DNA of 20,271 bases from positions 1-20,271 of the IMG/VR virus record IMGVR_UViG_3300020463_003070. One strand, 5' to 3'. Both the position numbers and the translations under genes were made by a program. The notes beneath the pieces were generated by a model. That model was given only the letters and a program-made list of their open reading frames with translations, made no database searches and had not been told where the DNA came from. This document shows positions 3,213 to 20,271 of the stretch, one piece after another. The stretch comes from a virus. Positions within the stretch are counted from its first letter, which is position 1. Each line of letters opens with the position of its first letter.

Positions 3213-3737
3213 TCATCGCAAAAATTCACGATAATCTATTTTGTACATCAGTGGATTGATCTTGTGGATACCTATCAAAAATAAACAAAAACTTGCCACA
3301 CTTGATCCTCGGCCAACACCCCAAACTATGTTATGCTTTCTCATCGTATCAACGAAATACACTAAAAACTGGAGGACCTTGATAAAATTTTTCTTCTCAA
3401 ACAACTCGTATTCTTTTTCAACACGTGCCGTTTCCTCTTTGGTTTGACATTTTTCCAAAAGATATTTTTTCATATCTAGATCATAATAGGATTTGGGCAT
3501 ATGCCAATTAGCATAATTTTTTTTGTCAAACTCTGTTACAGTGATGTCTCTTTTAGGAACATTTTTTATTTTTGGTAAATCAACACCGATGTCGTCTAGT
3601 GCTTTTTTATATTGATCAGTATCTTCAAAGTACAGTTTAGAAATATCAAAATCTGGATTTGTATACAGGAATTCTAAAGCATCATCTTCTGTAATAATGC
3701 AATCACCATACTCATTTGTTTTTATTTTTGCCGCCAT
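3213..3737 (-). CDS. Stand-alone fragment of a DnaE-like (C-family) DNA polymerase
   Basis: 174 aa. The C-terminal third reads like the start of the DnaE polymerase palm: a YELFEKKNF...LQFLVYFVDTMRKHNI helix, then VWGVGRGSSVASFCLF (about 138-153), LIGIHKINPL and YREFLR. This matches the bacterial pol III alpha segment containing GRGS, with the ...DPL...FERFLN element behind it. In full enzymes the catalytic Asp-x-Asp follows within about 15 residues; here a TGA ends the protein just before it, and the next gene does not supply it. The first 110 residues are not recognised. The ATG overlaps the upstream gene by 26 nt. It cannot be a polymerase alone; it may bind nucleotide or DNA, partner another protein, or be a relic. 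Confidence 0.75.
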   Translation of the reverse strand: MAAKIKTNEYGDCIITEDDALEFLYTNPDFDISKLYFEDTDQYKKALDDIGVDLPKIKNVPKRDITVTEFDKKNYANWHMPKSYYDLDMKKYLLEKCQTKEETARVEKEYELFEKKNFIKVLQFLVYFVDTMRKHNIVWGVGRGSSVASFCLFLIGIHKINPLMYKIDYREFLR

Positions 3738-13841: not shown

Positions 13842-14581
13842 TACCTTTTCCAACGAATTGACGTTAAAGGCATTCCGTCCATCACCTTTTTTAGATCTCC
13901 ATAGGTGCCATATTTGAAGTTTTCTAAAAGTGTTGTTGCACTGTGTAATATGAAATTGGATTCGTTTACCTCTATTCTATTGATGTAGTAAAAATTTTTA
14001 TCCTTAAATCTTTTTGCCAATTGTTTCAGTTGCCATCTCCATTCATACTTTAAATATGCTTTCATGCTTTTCCTAGTTGGATAATTTCGAGAGTCTTTGT
14101 ATATGTTGTTTTGATCTCTGCTCATGGACCCGTCTCTTATTGTCCATTGTTTACCCCCTATCATATCAAATCCAATTATAAAAATATCTTTGTGATCATC
14201 AACACAGGCCTGCCACACTGCTGAACATCCAGATCCTTTCGTTTTCGAAAAGTCTAAAGTTTTAAGTTTTTTTCCTTCCTTCCAGCCGCCACCTGCCCAA
14301 TACCTACCTCCATCTTGTGTGTCACTTTTTAGAGTGTAGTCCCATTCGGGTAGTTCTTCGACTCCGATAATTTTTATGTCAGTCGGTATCATGCCCATAC
14401 CTCTGGCTTCAATTAGTTCATCATACATTTCTGAATTAACTGCAATTATTTTATCGCAAAGTTTTGGATGATCTCTGTATATTGCATTACAACCATATAT
14501 GGTTCCCTTGCCACCACGTAAATTATTTAGATTATATATTCTTCGGGATTCGCCGTTACCTATTACGAATGCATAGGACAT
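13838..14581 (-). CDS. GT42/DUF115-like protein (sialyltransferase-type fold), copy 1
   Basis: The start at ATG 14581 (MSYAFVIGNGESRRIYN) is chosen because it overlaps the Fe-S carrier stop as TAATG; a start 30 nt upstream would run into that gene. 247 aa. Motifs are VIGNGESR (6-13), YGCNAIYRD (29-37), KGSGCSAVWQACVD (115-128) and IFIIGFDMIG (133-142). These correspond in order to CstII-type sialyltransferases (IAGNGPSL, RCNQFY, TSGVYMCAVA, IYLSGIDFY) and to related MptE/DUF115 proteins, so a nucleotide-sugar or nucleotide-binding Rossmann-like enzyme is likely. A paralogue lies at 18799-19431. The substrate is unknown; modification of phage or host glycans is the working idea. Family-level confidence is moderate. 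Confidence 0.65.
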   Translation of the reverse strand: MSYAFVIGNGESRRIYNLNNLRGGKGTIYGCNAIYRDHPKLCDKIIAVNSEMYDELIEARGMGMIPTDIKIIGVEELPEWDYTLKSDTQDGGRYWAGGGWKEGKKLKTLDFSKTKGSGCSAVWQACVDDHKDIFIIGFDMIGGKQWTIRDGSMSRDQNNIYKDSRNYPTRKSMKAYLKYEWRWQLKQLAKRFKDKNFYYINRIEVNESNFILHSATTLLENFKYGTYGDLKKVMDGMPLTSIRWKRY

Positions 14582-14910
14582 TAAGCACCGAAACTCTCGC
14601 CACAACCACAAGAAGATTTTGCATTTGGATTGGATATCTCAAAATGAGATCCAAATACTTCTTCTTTCCAATTCACAGTTGTTCCAAGTACAAACATGAC
14701 ACTCATTGAGTCAACAACAAACTTTCCATTGTCCCACTTAACAACAACGTCATCTTTGTTTATTTCTGAATCTTTTGCAAAACCCCAATCATATTTAAAA
14801 CCTGCACAACCGCCACCTAACACTGATAAACGGACAGCGTCTTGTTCAGGATTTTTTGTCAGCAAATTTGACATTTGTACTTTTGCTGTTTCTGTTACAT
14901 TAATTGACAT
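14581..14910 (-). CDS. A-type Fe-S cluster carrier (IscA/ErpA/HesB family)
   Basis: 109 aa, the usual family length. The three cluster-binding cysteines are present: Cys35 in LGGGCAGFKYDW, and Cys101 and Cys103 in SSCGCGESFGA at the C-terminus. The opening NVTETAKVQMSNLL and the middle strand VVDSMSVMFVLGTTVNW also match (family pattern V.D..S...L.G...D). Such proteins receive Fe-S clusters from the scaffold and pass them to target enzymes. It directly follows sufE-like (8-nt gap) and grxD-like genes, forming a compact Fe-S cassette, and its stop overlaps the next start as TAATG. Likely function in infection: keeping host or phage Fe-S enzymes supplied. Confidence 0.93.
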   Translation of the reverse strand: MSINVTETAKVQMSNLLTKNPEQDAVRLSVLGGGCAGFKYDWGFAKDSEINKDDVVVKWDNGKFVVDSMSVMFVLGTTVNWKEEVFGSHFEISNPNAKSSCGCGESFGA

Positions 14911-14918
14911 ACTATTAA

Positions 14919-15320
14919 TTATCTAATTTTTGCCAACATCATTTCTATCATTTGATAAAAACCAGTTTGTCTATTCATTGTTAGCATTTCGTCTAACTTC
15001 ATCTTTTTAAAATCTTCTACTGTGATTTTTTTTGATTCTTCTTCCGTCATACTGTTAAAAATATCAACCAATATATATGCGTAACCTCCGGCAATCATGG
15101 CGTTGCTCCATGCTTTGAACTTGTCATCTTCTCTGTCAACAAAAAGATCGTATTGACAACGGCTTACCCTGTTATTTTCTGTTTGTTTTTCTTTGCTTAA
15201 AGAGTCAGTTGAAAGTTGTTTACCTAACCCAATCAACCATTGGTATACCTCTAGGCTGTCTATATTCTTAAGTGCTTCTAAATGGTCCTTATATTCTTTT
15301 ATTTTTTCATCAAACGTCAT
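14919..15320 (-). CDS. sufE: SufE-like cysteine desulfurase activator
   Basis: 133 aa, normal SufE length (about 138). SufE accepts persulfide sulfur from SufS on a conserved Cys and hands it to the SufBCD scaffold. The key block ENNRVSRCQYDLFVD (about 48-62) corresponds to the SufE V.GC.S.VW motif, with Cys55 as the acceptor; Gly before Cys is replaced by Arg. Downstream the family's D/N-A-x-I-x-x-G pattern is seen as WSNAMIAGGYAYILVD, and the end NRQTGFYQMIEMMLAKI matches the usual sR.nG...M. signature. The start overlaps the glutaredoxin stop as TGATG, indicating coupled translation. The sequence is divergent but the motif order is clear. Confidence 0.85.
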   Translation of the reverse strand: MTFDEKIKEYKDHLEALKNIDSLEVYQWLIGLGKQLSTDSLSKEKQTENNRVSRCQYDLFVDREDDKFKAWSNAMIAGGYAYILVDIFNSMTEEESKKITVEDFKKMKLDEMLTMNRQTGFYQMIEMMLAKIR

Positions 15321-15640
15321 CAGTCTATCCTATCTAATACCTTTTTTAGTTCGCCACTTTCATACATTTCTTTTACAATATCACAACCACCTAGAAATTC
15401 TCCTTTAACGTACAACTGAGGAATAGTTGGCCAGTCACTGAAATCTTTAATTCCTTGTCTTAAATTTTCATCTGCTAAAACATTTACTCCGATAAAATCT
15501 ACTTTTGAAACTTTAAGTATATTTGAGACTGCCATTGAAAATCCACACTGTGGTGCGTCTGGTGTGCCTTTCATGAAAAGAACAATATTATTATTATCTA
15601 TTGTGCTTTGTATTTGTTCATTTATTTGTTTATTTTCCAT
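15320..15640 (-). CDS. grxD: Monothiol glutaredoxin, GrxD type (CGFS)
   Basis: 106 aa, single-domain length. Hallmarks are VLFMKGTPDAPQCGFS with active-site Cys32, the cis-Pro region WPTIPQLYVKGEFLGGCDIV (70-89) and Lys24 for glutathione contact. CGFS glutaredoxins bind a bridging 2Fe-2S cluster with glutathione and transfer it to A-type carriers, frequently with BolA; they are not general disulfide reductants. The ATG lies inside the end of the VOC gene (19-nt overlap) and the stop overlaps sufE as TGATG. No bolA is visible in the window. The neighbours sufE and the A-type carrier make an Fe-S role very likely. Confidence 0.95.
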   Translation of the reverse strand: MENKQINEQIQSTIDNNNIVLFMKGTPDAPQCGFSMAVSNILKVSKVDFIGVNVLADENLRQGIKDFSDWPTIPQLYVKGEFLGGCDIVKEMYESGELKKVLDRID

Positions 15641-16461: not shown

Positions 16462-17158
16462 CTACCAGCGGATCACCACAGTTAAATGGTTTAGGTTCTC
16501 CGTGGAAAACTGCTACAGAACAGTCGTCTGGTATAGTGGGCGGATGTTGGAAAACGTGTTTAGCACCATTTTTTATCTTTGTGTCTTTTTTACCAACAAG
16601 TTCCCATTTGTATGATTGGATCCATGTTCTTGGCCACCAAACAATATCTTTGGTGCCTTTGCTGGTGATCCAATCTTGATCTCCGTGCATCCGGCCCTGT
16701 ACTGCATGGGGATCTTGTGCATACATCTCCCAAAGGTAATGTAGAGTGCCTGCTGTAAATCTCATGACAGAACTATTGCTGACTTTCCAATCTTCCATTC
16801 TACATCTGTTGAAATCTTGAATTATCATTAATTTATTTTGTCCTACATTATACGTCCATAGATTATCTATGTTTCTAAAAATCACAACATCTAAATCAAA
16901 ATAAAGTAGTTCACCCGACAAAGGCAAATCTTTATGGAACATATAAAGTTTGCTCCACCAAGTTTTTATGGCTCCAGGATTGTCAGGAAATTTTATTACA
17001 TTGATATCAGGATCTAAACCTGTGGGGTCATCAGTCAAACAATTAAAAGTGAAGTCGACCGTGCATTGTCTCTTACACATATTTTTAAGTATATTGACAT
17101 ACTCGGGTATAAACTTGTTACCCCATTTCACACAAATAATATGCTTATCTTGGCCCAT
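16445..17158 (-). CDS. GT-A-type glycosyltransferase, 237 aa
   Basis: The start (MGQDKHIICVKWGNKFIPEY) and the metal-binding DxD in LLYFDLDVVIF (Asp88, Asp90) indicate a GT-A nucleotide-sugar transferase. Further blocks are KTWWSKLYMFHKDL (65-78), an RMHGDQDWITSKG segment (156-168), where HGDQDW fits the acceptor or catalytic site, and VAVFHGEPKPFNCGD near the end. The fold is related to GT8-like enzymes, but no specific family is assigned. There is no signal peptide or membrane anchor, so it is cytoplasmic. With the two GT42/DUF115-like proteins it forms a scattered set of sugar-transfer genes, possibly altering DNA, virion or host surface. AGGTG upstream of ATG 17158 serves as ribosome site. 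Confidence 0.8.
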   Translation of the reverse strand: MGQDKHIICVKWGNKFIPEYVNILKNMCKRQCTVDFTFNCLTDDPTGLDPDINVIKFPDNPGAIKTWWSKLYMFHKDLPLSGELLYFDLDVVIFRNIDNLWTYNVGQNKLMIIQDFNRCRMEDWKVSNSSVMRFTAGTLHYLWEMYAQDPHAVQGRMHGDQDWITSKGTKDIVWWPRTWIQSYKWELVGKKDTKIKNGAKHVFQHPPTIPDDCSVAVFHGEPKPFNCGDPLVVDNWK

Positions 17159-17184
17159 CTTACACCTATTTAACTATTGACGAT

Positions 17185-17640
17185 TTATTTTGACTCGTAA
17201 ATGGCACTGTTAGCACCATGTTCCATACACTCTACTTTGACAACATAACATCTATTGTTAGTTTTCTCTCTAATCAATTTGTCAGCGAATTCAAAGGCGT
17301 GTTTTGCAAACATTTCTGCACCAACACCATCAAACATTCTTATCTCTGCTAGATCTAATTTTTCAAGTTCTTTAAATTTTTCTAAATGCGGATCGTTATG
17401 ATCCAAAGCAAGTTTATGATCAAACTTATCTTCGAGCCATGCTTTCAAAGGTTTGAGTCCTCCAAAGTCAACTGCCCAATTTTTATTATCTAATTCATCG
17501 CACCCAAAAGTAAATTTAAATGCTAACGAATAACCATGTAATAAATGGCAGTGTGAATGATCTGCGTTAGGTTGTCTAAAAACACAGGCTAAACCTATGT
17601 TGTGTCCATATGTCTTCGTACTATAAAATGGCATTCCCAT
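17185..17640 (-). CDS. queD: QueD-like 6-carboxytetrahydropterin / 6-pyruvoyltetrahydropterin synthase
   Basis: 151 aa. QueD makes 6-carboxy-tetrahydropterin on the way to queuosine or 7-deazaguanine. Visible features are the zinc-ligand region HSHCHLLHGYSLAFKFTF (His-rich, with the HGH motif changed to HGY), DFGGLKPLKAWLEDKFDHKLALDHNDP, which matches D(F/L)..LK....LDH..LN, and a C-terminal VVKVECMEHGANSAIYE strand with the family's Glu. A ribosome site AAGGAG lies upstream; spacing to the third codon ATG (17634) is better (8 nt) than to the first (2 nt), so the true start may be MPFYSTKTY. No queC, queE or folE is visible in the window. It may serve tRNA or phage-DNA modification. Confidence 0.85.
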   Translation of the reverse strand: MGMPFYSTKTYGHNIGLACVFRQPNADHSHCHLLHGYSLAFKFTFGCDELDNKNWAVDFGGLKPLKAWLEDKFDHKLALDHNDPHLEKFKELEKLDLAEIRMFDGVGAEMFAKHAFEFADKLIREKTNNRCYVVKVECMEHGANSAIYESK

Positions 17641-17705
17641 CTCTCCTTATACGACTTGCAGAATTTTTAGAGAGGGTTGAAAGTCTTTTTAAGTCCTCGT
17701 ATATG

Positions 17706-17957
17706 TTAATGTACAGTAAGTTTAGGTTGTTTGTCAAGACCTAATTCTTTACTAACCGTATTTAGACGTTCTGTCAAATCATTTGGCACATCCAATTTTC
17801 CATCAATTATGGATTTTAAGAAGTGTACCAAAACTTGGAATTGACCACTTTCTGCTATCTCTTCAGGATCAATACCAAACTTTTCAAATTGATTTAGCAT
17901 TGCCTCTAAAGAGTCGATTAGGCATTTAATACTATCATTGTGTTTATCACTCATCAT
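17706..17957 (-). CDS. Small acidic helical protein, 83 aa
   Basis: ATG 17957 overlaps the TGA of the Sm-like gene (ATGA), implying coupling. The protein is predicted helical: NDSIKCLIDSLEAMLNQFEK, then PEEIAESGQFQVLVHFLKSI, IDGKLDVPNDLTERLNTVSK, ending LTVH. No motif or family is recognised. The alternating hydrophobic pattern would suit a small helical bundle or dimer. Between it and queD lies a 65-nt stretch (17641-17705) with no strong promoter, only a weak TTGACA/TACATT pair. Confidence 0.7.
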   Translation of the reverse strand: MMSDKHNDSIKCLIDSLEAMLNQFEKFGIDPEEIAESGQFQVLVHFLKSIIDGKLDVPNDLTERLNTVSKELGLDKQPKLTVH

Positions 17958-18259
17958 ACAATTATGTTAGGTTTTGCGGTTGTCTTTATTTTGCTGAAAA
18001 CATTATTGTATTGATCCTTCAGTTTAGGATTTATCTCTGCTATTGCGGTTATGTTATTTGATGCAATCTTAATAGCCTTTTCTGGATTGGCTGTTGAAAA
18101 AAATGTACCTAATGCAATACCCTGTGGTCCTTGCATAAGCACCAGACCTTTTTCAACTTCAACATACCCTTCATTGGTAGATAAAAATTTACACAATAGT
18201 TCTTCACCATTTGATAGTTTAATAGTAATTAAATCATTGGGTTTATATTCTTTAAACAT
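17954..18259 (-). CDS. Sm-like or SH3-like small phage protein, 101 aa
   Basis: The first 50 residues have the strand pattern of an Sm fold: DLITIKLSNGEELLCKFLST, then NEGYVEVEKGLVL and MQGPQGIALGTFF, reminiscent of Sm1 (V.L..G....G.L...D....L). The last 40 residues are helical and basic (NPKLKDQYNNVFSKIKTTAK). Similar proteins recur in marine T4-like phages as conserved hypotheticals. An RNA-binding role, as for Hfq, is possible but there is no clear Sm2 motif. A TTGACA-based promoter stands 6 nt from the ATG, so the mRNA would be leaderless; its -35 overlaps the end of the glycosylase gene. The fold call is by pattern only. Confidence 0.7.
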   Translation of the reverse strand: MFKEYKPNDLITIKLSNGEELLCKFLSTNEGYVEVEKGLVLMQGPQGIALGTFFSTANPEKAIKIASNNITAIAEINPKLKDQYNNVFSKIKTTAKPNIIV

Positions 18260-18293
18260 ATTTTAATATTACACTCTATTTAGATTTTGTCAA
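18260..18293 (-). promoter_or_regulatory. Sigma70-like promoter of the Sm-like gene, apparently leaderless
   Basis: TTGACA (18293-18288), 16-nt spacer, TAATAT (18271-18266, 4 of 6 matches to consensus), then TAAAAT and the ATG at 18259. The -35 is read within the ATT GAC AAA codons of the glycosylase gene. The -10 is the weakest of the set, so the call rests on matching architecture. Confidence 0.5.
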
Positions 18294-18681
18294 TGTATTT
18301 TTTCAATTCTTTGTCTTGCACATCATCAGGAATGGTTTTAAGAAAGAATATTTGGTAACTATCGGAACCGTACTTGCCAATACCATGCAAATCACTTGCT
18401 TCCTTGCCGTTCCAAGTTAAAAATTGTTCCGTCATTTTACGAATCCTTTTTGATCTTACTTCCCACATACCTAAAGGTTTTAAGATTTTTTGTTGTGTTT
18501 TAAGGCGTCCTTTTAAATAGGCCAGAGGTGTTGGATATTTTTCAAACAAAAGTGGTAATATTGTTTTGACCTGTTTCCTGTAAGTGAGGTTTAGACACAT
18601 TACAGCAACCATGTGTTTCCACCTTTTGTAGGGTGCCTTAAGTTGTTGTTGAACCATTAATTTATCTAACATTGGTCTCAT
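18280..18681 (-). CDS. HhH DNA glycosylase resembling the MBD4 catalytic domain
   Basis: 133 aa, about the size of the MBD4 glycosylase core. It tracks that domain in order: MVAVMCLNLTYRKQ (MBD4: LIATIFLNRTSGK), LLFEKYPTPLAYLKG, KILKPLGMWEVRSKRI (MBD4: ELLKPLGLYDLRAKTI), DLHGIGKYGSDSYQIF (97-112; MBD4: ELHGIGKYGNDSYRIF), then VQDKELKKYIDK, where Asp123 sits where MBD4 has its catalytic Asp (HPEDHKLNKYHDW). MBD4 removes T or U opposite G, so repair of deaminated bases is the likely job. It lacks a methyl-CpG domain and the Fe-S cluster of MutY/Nth. The ATG lacks a nearby Shine-Dalgarno and sits just after a strong hairpin. Confidence 0.82.
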   Translation of the reverse strand: MRPMLDKLMVQQQLKAPYKRWKHMVAVMCLNLTYRKQVKTILPLLFEKYPTPLAYLKGRLKTQQKILKPLGMWEVRSKRIRKMTEQFLTWNGKEASDLHGIGKYGSDSYQIFFLKTIPDDVQDKELKKYIDKI

Positions 18682-18780
18682 AATTTTTTGGGGGGTGAAT
18701 TAACACCCCCTCCATGGATTGACTGCGGAAGGAAGTCGGCATTCAGGTAACTCTCGCCCCTGTTGAACGTGTCCAACCAC
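18682..18780 (-). ncRNA. GC-rich structured leader or small RNA upstream of the glycosylase gene
   Basis: A 99-nt stretch between the promoter and the glycosylase ATG. By hand count 18704-18780 is about 57% GC, far above its surroundings. On the transcript, GUUGGA-CACG-UUCAAC (18777-18762) is a perfect 6-bp hairpin with one G-U pair. CAGG pairs with CCUG (18762-18744, sharing one base with the first hairpin), GACU with AGUC (18737-18721), and GGGGGUG-UUAAUU-CACCCCC (18710-18691) is a strong hairpin ending 9 nt before the ATG and containing the only Shine-Dalgarno-like GGAGG nearby. This could be a riboswitch-like leader or a free RNA. Alternative: it encodes a micropeptide (26 aa from GTG 18780, or 32 aa from TTG 18776 ending ATGA on the glycosylase start). 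No known class recognised. Confidence 0.45.
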
Positions 18781-18816
18781 TTTATTATTATACTACGATT
18801 ATTTGTTTTTTGTCAA
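18781..18816 (-). promoter_or_regulatory. Consensus sigma70-like promoter for the structured leader
   Basis: Perfect TTGACA (18816-18811), 18-nt spacer, perfect TATAAT (18792-18787), then AATAAA and G at 18780 as predicted +1. It is the best promoter match in the window. The -35 uses the last codons of the upstream GT42/DUF115-like gene (TTG ACA). Confidence 0.8.
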
Positions 18817-19431
18817 CTGCTTTTGGATAAACTTTATAAGTCCATCATAGGTTTCAAAGAAAACGTTTTTATGTTGGCTCCACTCTTCCGGCATTTTCCA
18901 ACCTTGTTGATTTACCACTAACCATCTGCAATCACTGTGTTTCATCAACATATTGAATTGGTGTATCCAATAACTAGGATCTACTTCTCTTTTGATATAT
19001 TCATAACCTTTGGTATTTTTGTATACATTATTAACTTCGCCCTTGTTAAAACTATAAAGATCAAAGCCAATTAGAAATATAACTTTAGGTTTAAAACTCA
19101 AACCAATCAAACCAGCATATGGGCCGGAACCCCAATGAAAGGGTTCGTCTGCTCTATTAGATCCTTGATATGGCAATTCGGGGAACTTCTTTACATTTGG
19201 CCACATGGCAAATTGTCCATGCCATTTATCTCTTGTAAAAATTTTTGTGTTCTTGCCACAGGTATTTGCGGCTTCTTGTGCCATGTGTTTATCACAGGCA
19301 CTTATGTATTCAATGTTGTAGTCTCTGAAAATAGCATTACAGCCTACCACTGTTGAGAACTTTTTAAGAGGAGTTATATCAAACCCTTGTCTGCTTTCTC
19401 CGTTACCTATTACACTTACAAACTTGGTCAT
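18799..19431 (-). CDS. GT42/DUF115-like protein, copy 2
   Basis: 210 aa, paralogous to 13838-14581: SVIGNGESRQG (6-16), VVGCNAIFRD (28-37), HWGSGPYAGLIGL (99-111), VIFLIGFDLY (117-126) and NNVYKN (134-139) line up with the same blocks there. The order of the glycine-rich loop, CNAI, GSG helix and IGFD strand is that of CstII-type sialyltransferases and DUF115 proteins. Copy 2 lacks the stretch corresponding to residues about 85-110 of copy 1. It is cytoplasmic, with no signal or anchor. No Shine-Dalgarno is obvious. The end overlaps the promoter of the next transcript. A sugar- or nucleotide-transfer function is inferred from motif order, not demonstrated. Confidence 0.65.
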   Translation of the reverse strand: MTKFVSVIGNGESRQGFDITPLKKFSTVVGCNAIFRDYNIEYISACDKHMAQEAANTCGKNTKIFTRDKWHGQFAMWPNVKKFPELPYQGSNRADEPFHWGSGPYAGLIGLSFKPKVIFLIGFDLYSFNKGEVNNVYKNTKGYEYIKREVDPSYWIHQFNMLMKHSDCRWLVVNQQGWKMPEEWSQHKNVFFETYDGLIKFIQKQLTKNK

Positions 19432-19493
19432 AACCGTCTTAATTGTGCCCTTTAAAGCGTCTTACAGCGGCATACACGCATGGTAAATTTAAT

Positions 19494-20027
19494 CTATGCA
19501 TCTAACTTCACCACAGGAAATTTAGGTCCTTTTTCCACTATGCTCTGGTCTGATATTACCAAACTTCCTTCATCGAACATATCTAATATCCTTCTAGTGA
19601 CTTTGGATCTTGGTAAATCTTGATTCATTTGTTTTAAAGTATTTACAAATTCGTTACGTTTTTTTTGCCCTACAATAGTGTTGGCATCCTTGAATAACTT
19701 TTCTTTTAAGTATTGATCAGTTTTCATAAAGGCGGCCAATTCCTTTTCTTTTATCTTTTGTTCTTTTAGTTGTTCTTTGTCTGTATGCACTTCTGTTATT
19801 TTAAATTTACGGGCAACTTGTTTAGCACTCTTTTCGTGGCAGTACCAACTTACTCCGTTAAAAATAAAACTAGGAATTTTTTTGTCACATTTGTATCCGT
19901 AATCGATTTCATGTTTTTTTAAAAACTTTAAAAGATCGGCATCCTTCTTTTCATCAGCACCCACTATCGCATCTGGAAAACCACTGCACCAATTTTCTTC
20001 GATTAAAAAATATTTTACCCACGCCAT
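19494..20027 (-). CDS. Hypothetical protein with coiled-coil centre, 177 aa
   Basis: The start MAWVKYFLIEENWCSGFPDA overlaps the upstream small gene by 13 nt. The first 75 residues look globular (KKIPSFIFNGVSWYCHEKSA, with Cys and His). Residues about 80-135 are charged and helical, probably coiled coil (KEQLKEQKIKEKELAAFMK). A Lys/Arg-rich segment (DLPRSKVTRRILDMFDEGS) and KFPVVKLDA close the protein. No family is recognised. The RxKVTRRILDMF segment resembles a small helical binding domain, but no claim is made. It is followed by a 62-nt gap before the GT42/DUF115-like gene; there I see only a 9-codon ORF and weak dyads, no clear promoter. Confidence 0.75.
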   Translation of the reverse strand: MAWVKYFLIEENWCSGFPDAIVGADEKKDADLLKFLKKHEIDYGYKCDKKIPSFIFNGVSWYCHEKSAKQVARKFKITEVHTDKEQLKEQKIKEKELAAFMKTDQYLKEKLFKDANTIVGQKKRNEFVNTLKQMNQDLPRSKVTRRILDMFDEGSLVISDQSIVEKGPKFPVVKLDA

Positions 20028-20155
20028 TTTGGATGTCCTTTTGGATAGTTAATAATCTTACCAAAAGCGGAATAAGTTGCACCAAAGACTTCTTCTTCGA
20101 CTTGTTCTCTTGTTTTGCCGGATCCGTTCCATAAATCTTCATGCATAGAAATCAT
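20015..20155 (-). CDS. Small hypothetical protein, 46 aa, possibly the C-terminal part of a frameshifted gene
   Basis: ATG 20155 to TAA 20017-20015, reading MISMHEDLWNGSGKTREQVE and, at the end, AFGKIINYPKGHPKWRG. Composition is protein-like. Upstream in the same frame the codons stay open back to a TAG near 20217 and read KKRKKQEEEYID before the Met. A better start, ATG 20214, lies 1 nt after the previous gene's stop but is in the neighbouring frame; an A11 tract joins the two frames. If a -1 shift or an extra A occurs there, one protein of about 65 aa results. Otherwise the 46-aa form is made alone, with no clear Shine-Dalgarno. Confidence 0.6.
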   Translation of the reverse strand: MISMHEDLWNGSGKTREQVEEEVFGATYSAFGKIINYPKGHPKWRG

Positions 20156-20194
20156 ATCTATATATTCTTCTTCTTGCTTTTTTCTTTTTTTAAA

Positions 20195-20205
20195 TTTTTT
20201 TTTTT
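20195..20205 (-). other. A11 slippery tract near the start of a small gene
   Basis: Eleven consecutive A on the coding (minus) strand, 5 codons after ATG 20214. It contains A AAA AAA, a classical -1 slippage heptamer. In frame 0 the ORF ends after 18 codons; in the -1 frame it fuses to the 46-aa ORF that ends at 20015. A one-base assembly error in this homopolymer would have the same effect. Confidence 0.6.
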
Positions 20206-20215
20206 GGCATTCATA

Positions 20216-20271
20216 CTAATTATCATCATGTATGAGATGCCAAATTGTTTTATATTTTTGCCATGCATTTT
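20216..20271 (-). CDS. C-terminus of an upstream gene, cut by the window edge
   Basis: An open frame enters from the right edge and ends at TAG 20218-20216; the visible residues are NAWQKYKTIWHLIHDDN. It is followed after 1 nt by ATG 20214. Aromatic and charged residues make a coding end plausible, but 17 codons are too few to name a family. Confidence 0.5.
   Translation of the reverse strand, partial: NAWQKYKTIWHLIHDDN

Follow-up and report, generated by a model that had tools for sequence, protein, structure and literature searches.

Leaderless mRNAs of the lambda cI type, i.e., those whose −10 element lies so near the gene that the transcription start (+1) is the start codon itself, represent one of the described systems closest to the locus considered here. 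Phage transcripts have been called often leaderless (PMC5312081). Another close system is the split ribosome-binding site of the T4 genes 25 and 38 (Nivinskas et al. 1999; Malys and Nivinskas; reviewed in PMC3014915). In gene 25, the spacing between the Shine–Dalgarno (SD) sequence and AUG is reduced from 27 to 11 nt through a hairpin, and this arrangement is experimentally supported (PMC3014915). The cis-regulatory leaders collected in Rfam are a further point of comparison.

The locus belongs to a window of 20,271 nt (the whole stretch of viral DNA analyzed, IMG/VR record IMGVR_UViG_3300020463_003070), where a GC-rich stretch of 99 nt separates a consensus promoter from a DNA-repair glycosylase gene on the minus strand. 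As in leaderless mRNAs of the cI type, the −10 element of its relatives is situated six nt ahead of the ATG, without an SD sequence; unlike in that type, the near-consensus promoter–ATG fusion is repeated at several genes within a single phage group, and the ATG of the window is displaced by the insert, with a GTG at +1. The locus also resembles T4 genes 25 and 38: it is a phage gene with an SD sequence about 27 nt from the AUG and an intervening hairpin that can shorten this distance to about 11 nt, and the arrangement occurs in a single lineage, more distant relatives lacking it. It differs from them in that the stem overlaps the SD sequence by two bases, the homologues are predicted to be leaderless, the gene is a different one, and the arrangement is predicted from the sequence. 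With the Rfam leaders it shares the 5′ position and a hairpin in the neighborhood of the translation start, whereas a family match, phylogenetic spread and covariation are lacking.

The glycosylase promoter in the window and in related phages

The glycosylase gene (18280..18681, minus strand) codes for a 133-aa protein of the HhH-GPD type. Its Pfam HhH-GPD match is below the cut-off; a profile search against the PDB retrieved 3iho with an E of 7e-21, the closest solved structures being MBD4 glycosylase domains, so the name given to the gene in the first-pass annotation is right. An MBD4-like glycosylase is also found in Cyanophage S-TIM54 (60% identity). The gene lying upstream (18799..19431, minus strand; phrog_30607, no assigned function) terminates with a stop codon at 18801-18799, and the promoter overlaps its 3′ end, so that the −35 hexamer is located within its last codons.

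The promoter, TTGACA-N18-TATAAT at 18816-18787 of the minus strand (−35 hexamer at 18811..18816, −10 hexamer at 18787..18792), matches the consensus at 12 of 12 positions. It was initially singled out as the best one available, and it is indeed the top promoter match in the region 17000-20271. The same region harbors 12 promoter-like sites, close to the mean of 13.0 for shuffled sequences; hence, the consensus alone is weak proof, and it is the conservation in homologues that provides the proof.

The set of homologues comprised 80 IMG/VR loci from the first search, those added by a profile search, and three loci from metagenome bins (MAGs). In total, 102 homologous loci were analyzed, with 83 distinct upstream sequences of 60 nt. 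The same promoter directly precedes the glycosylase in 100 of the 102; these insert-free loci keep TTGACA in 99 cases and have TAGACA in one, with a spacer of 16–17 nt and a TAWAAT-like −10 element, mostly TAAAAT or TATAAT. The genes upstream are of several unrelated kinds (with the C-termini ...INKQLTKK, ...LWPELSTLTA and ...FMGELTK, e.g.), and the hexamer falls in differing reading frames of these genes. Its retention thus points to selection on a promoter at the DNA level and not to protein conservation. Judging from this comparison, the promoter upstream of the glycosylase is real and conserved.

The distance from the end of the −10 element to the glycosylase ATG is 6 nt in 97 loci, 5 nt in one and 7 nt in two, and SD-like tetramers at positions −18 to −4 of the ATG were found in none of the 100 promoter–ATG loci. 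With the −10 element ending about 6 nt ahead of the ATG, the +1 in the relatives is expected at the ATG itself; together with the lack of an SD-like sequence, this predicts a leaderless glycosylase mRNA. Overall, it is well supported by the sequence comparison that, in this marine phage group, a strong sigma-70-type promoter ends 6 nt ahead of the glycosylase ATG, and that the glycosylase mRNA of the relatives would be leaderless. By the position of the expected +1, 97 of the 100 relatives would belong with the cI type, and the window's own glycosylase ATG would not.

The GC-rich stretch at the predicted transcription start

In the window, the place of the relatives' glycosylase ATG, 6 nt after the −10 element, is occupied by a GTG (18780). 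The 99 nt between this predicted +1 and the glycosylase ATG (18682..18780, minus strand) are absent from 100 homologous loci. Their GC content is 51.5% vs. 36.7% in the window, and equally GC-rich 90-nt windows make up only 0.2%, which bears out the early remark that the first 99 nt of the transcript are rich in GC. The only carriers of the insert are the window and a sister allele, B (L001/L081 in IMG/VR; L163 and L164 in a Rickettsiales MAG). Since it is confined to these two and absent in the relatives, the stretch is best interpreted as having been inserted, in this lineage, at the predicted +1 behind a promoter whose transcripts in the relatives would be leaderless. An assembly artefact was ruled out, since allele B is carried both by an IMG/VR contig and by two contigs from a separate MAG. 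As phage contigs that are sisters of the window and share its glycosylase region, these two show that the Rickettsiales MAG in which they were binned (MED657) contains phage sequence.

Exact 17–22-mers of the insert were found in IMG/VR only in allele B, apart from two unrelated 17-mer matches, and blastn of the insert against phage and plasmid records returned short chance matches only. No second copy of the insert exists in its own record, and in the Rickettsiales MAG nothing turned up beyond the two copies of allele B and a chance match of 18 nt. A search for tRNA and tmRNA found none.

The inserts of the two alleles are 97% identical and differ by two adjacent substitutions and one deletion (an unpaired C after the stem). 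The synonymous divergence (pS) of the flanking genes between the alleles is 0.11, ranging from 0.02 to 0.24 between genes; the changes in the insert, 2 in 99, are below this divergence (P about 1e-3), itself an uneven rate, and the coding stretch adjoining the insert is also nearly identical between the alleles. Because of this unevenness and of the equally conserved neighboring stretch, the low divergence of the insert is weak evidence for constraint. With two alleles only, constraint cannot be told apart from a young age of the insert or from local homogenisation of the block.

Between a GGAGG (18709..18713, minus strand) and the ATG lies the hairpin GGGGGTG-TTAATT-CACCCCC (18691..18710, minus strand; −14.7 kcal/mol), in whose predicted fold positions 18710-18704 pair with 18697-18691; 7/7 pairs are unchanged in allele B. 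No other hairpin in the 20 kb combines a stem of at least 7 bp with at least five G–C pairs and a loop of 3–8 nt; when the insert was shuffled 5000 times with its dinucleotides preserved, 30 of the shuffles contained a 7-bp hairpin with at least six G–C pairs. Apart from this last hairpin, the several hairpins ascribed to the leader did not rise above the level of shuffled sequences (z −1.3 for the whole-leader fold, a stability equaled by 20 of 200 shuffles), and the adjacent double substitution between the alleles breaks a predicted pair. The combination of hairpin and SD sequence was found in 22 stretches of IMG/VR; allele B aside, none of these has an ATG 8–9 nt downstream or any other likeness to the locus. 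The hairpin was also considered as an intrinsic terminator, and this was rejected, there being no T-run after it on either strand as read from the sequence.

The last hairpin had been thought to sequester the SD-like sequence. This is true of the GG of GGAGG, which is part of the stem, but in allele A the GGA remains partly unpaired, and the SD sequence is situated 27 nt from the ATG (26 nt in allele B), a distance over which it could not act if the hairpin were missing.

Translation of the glycosylase behind its leader

Once a leader has been added to a leaderless gene, translation has to be started by some other route. The explanation favored here, tentatively and at slightly less than an even chance, is a compensated 5′ UTR insertion, which would have made a formerly leaderless gene SD-led via a split ribosome-binding site, and not a riboswitch. 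Sequence comparison shows the inserted stretch and the conserved promoter; we infer the translation step and, likewise, where transcription begins, whether the mRNAs are leaderless in vivo and what the hairpin does. According to this explanation, the GC-rich stretch would have entered at the transcription start in the window's lineage, so that the mRNA gained a 5′ leader supplying both the GGAGG and the GC-rich hairpin between GGAGG and the ATG. The anti-SD of the ribosome would then open two pairs of the stem, and the 5-bp hairpin left would bring the SD-to-AUG distance from 27 to about 11 nt (11 nt as computed). Opening the two pairs costs 6.6 kcal/mol, which the SD:anti-SD pairing (−8.7 kcal/mol) can cover. 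The layout itself, an SD sequence too far from the AUG with a hairpin (18691-18710) in between, is that of a split ribosome-binding site, and the hairpin is both rare by chance and intact in the two alleles. Against this stands the stability of the 7-bp stem, which, once formed, leaves GGA alone free, and that only partly, and whose opening yields a net gain of about −2 kcal/mol; in allele B, moreover, GGA can pair elsewhere. The match in spacing to T4 gene 25 could be a coincidence.

The 99 nt may also be a neutral insertion devoid of any regulatory role, which we regard as possible, if rather doubtful; the AUG would then be translated from the A-rich unpaired stretch AAAAAATT ahead of it, or poorly. 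Of 26 genes examined in the window, about two thirds lack an SD-like sequence, so AAAAAATT might suffice for translation. A neutral origin would accord with the shuffle-level fold of the whole leader and with the lack of relatives of the insert in every collection searched (IMG/VR, phage and plasmid records, Rfam), but less so with the shortage of changes relative to the (uneven) flanking synonymous rate and with a rare GC-rich hairpin left intact next to an intact promoter and gene.

The short frames in the leader bring in a different kind of explanation. The first-pass annotation described a 26-aa frame opening with the GTG at the predicted +1, and this putative frame (18700..18780, minus strand) is present, its stop TAA (18702-18700) falling in the hairpin loop. 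It could be translated leaderless from the 5′ end, with the ribosome opening the hairpin, stopping at the UAA in the loop and reinitiating at the glycosylase AUG, 18 nt downstream; this chain of events, taken jointly, seems improbable. The GTG does stand at the relatives' leaderless-ATG place, and the frame is open, with equal length, in both alleles. However, GTG occurs at the 6-nt spacing in one of 264 strict promoters vs. 121 for ATG, and the single codon difference between the alleles is non-synonymous (R to L). An N-terminal extension of the glycosylase starting from this GTG was rejected, given the in-frame UAA in the window and the shift out of frame in allele B. A second, 32-aa frame starting with TTG (18678..18776, minus strand) also exists as described, overlapping the glycosylase start by ATGA; the overlap is gone in allele B owing to the 1-nt deletion, which argues against translational coupling, and tblastn of its peptide returned one match with an E of 3. 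With the overlap broken in allele B, a leader peptide in the TTG frame is not supported, and the frame is probably not a gene.

A strong promoter followed by a GC-rich leader whose hairpin lies close to the ribosome-binding site could also suggest a riboswitch or another ligand- or protein-sensing RNA controlling the repair gene, yet such an RNA is a far-fetched reading of this leader. The insert is found in one phage lineage only, and the Rfam scan, both at the gathering threshold and at E 10, yielded only a chance match to a frameshift hairpin, i.e., no family match even permissively. No diverged homologue was found, and the two alleles exhibit no covariation; thus, covariation and, essentially, conservation in homologues are both missing for the insert. 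The part of the leader upstream of the hairpin folds no better than shuffles, and the change between the alleles breaks a predicted pair. With two near-identical alleles, no covariation, a negative Rfam search and a shuffle-level fold, the idea of a new riboswitch or regulatory RNA is not supported. It is very unlikely as well that the insert represents a very young phage regulatory leader, controlled by a ligand, protein or peptide and inserted at a leaderless +1, which would gate the DNA-repair glycosylase via the terminal hairpin.

Promoters fused to start codons across the phage group

The layout seen in the relatives of the glycosylase locus is not limited to this gene. Among the 264 distinct strict promoters at the loci of this phage group, 121 have an ATG at exactly 6 nt; the genes concerned include that of the glycosylase, its neighbor just behind and a number of others (loci L002-L080 included). 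In the window, the layout is displayed by UvdE (1257), GroES (2081) and two further genes, at 18259 and 215 (all on the minus strand), i.e., by 4 of 27 gene starts vs. 3 of the 746 remaining ATGs (P 4e-5). When the first 50 kb of T4, HTVC008M and P-SSM2 were scanned in this way, no such peak at 6 nt emerged, and a literature search returned no matching report of group-wide promoters ending about 6 nt before ATGs. The mRNAs transcribed in this group from ATG-fused near-consensus promoters, e.g., those of UvdE, GroES, the glycosylase and others, are predicted to be leaderless.

Two other regions of the window deserve mention. At 14581-15640 (minus strand), a glutaredoxin (Pfam) is clustered with SufE-like and IscA-like proteins recognized by eye, suggesting phage-borne iron–sulphur cluster genes. 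The 174-aa ORF at 3213-3737 (minus strand) matches only positions 16–94 of the 260 of PF07733, a DNA polymerase III alpha domain, and is possibly a fragment or a split gene.

The locus offers a natural before-and-after pair, with the same promoter and the same gene occurring with and without a 99-nt leader, which may help to understand how a leaderless gene gains a 5′ UTR. The phage group as a whole, with its near-consensus promoters fused to start codons, would be a clean test system for leaderless translation in marine phage infection.
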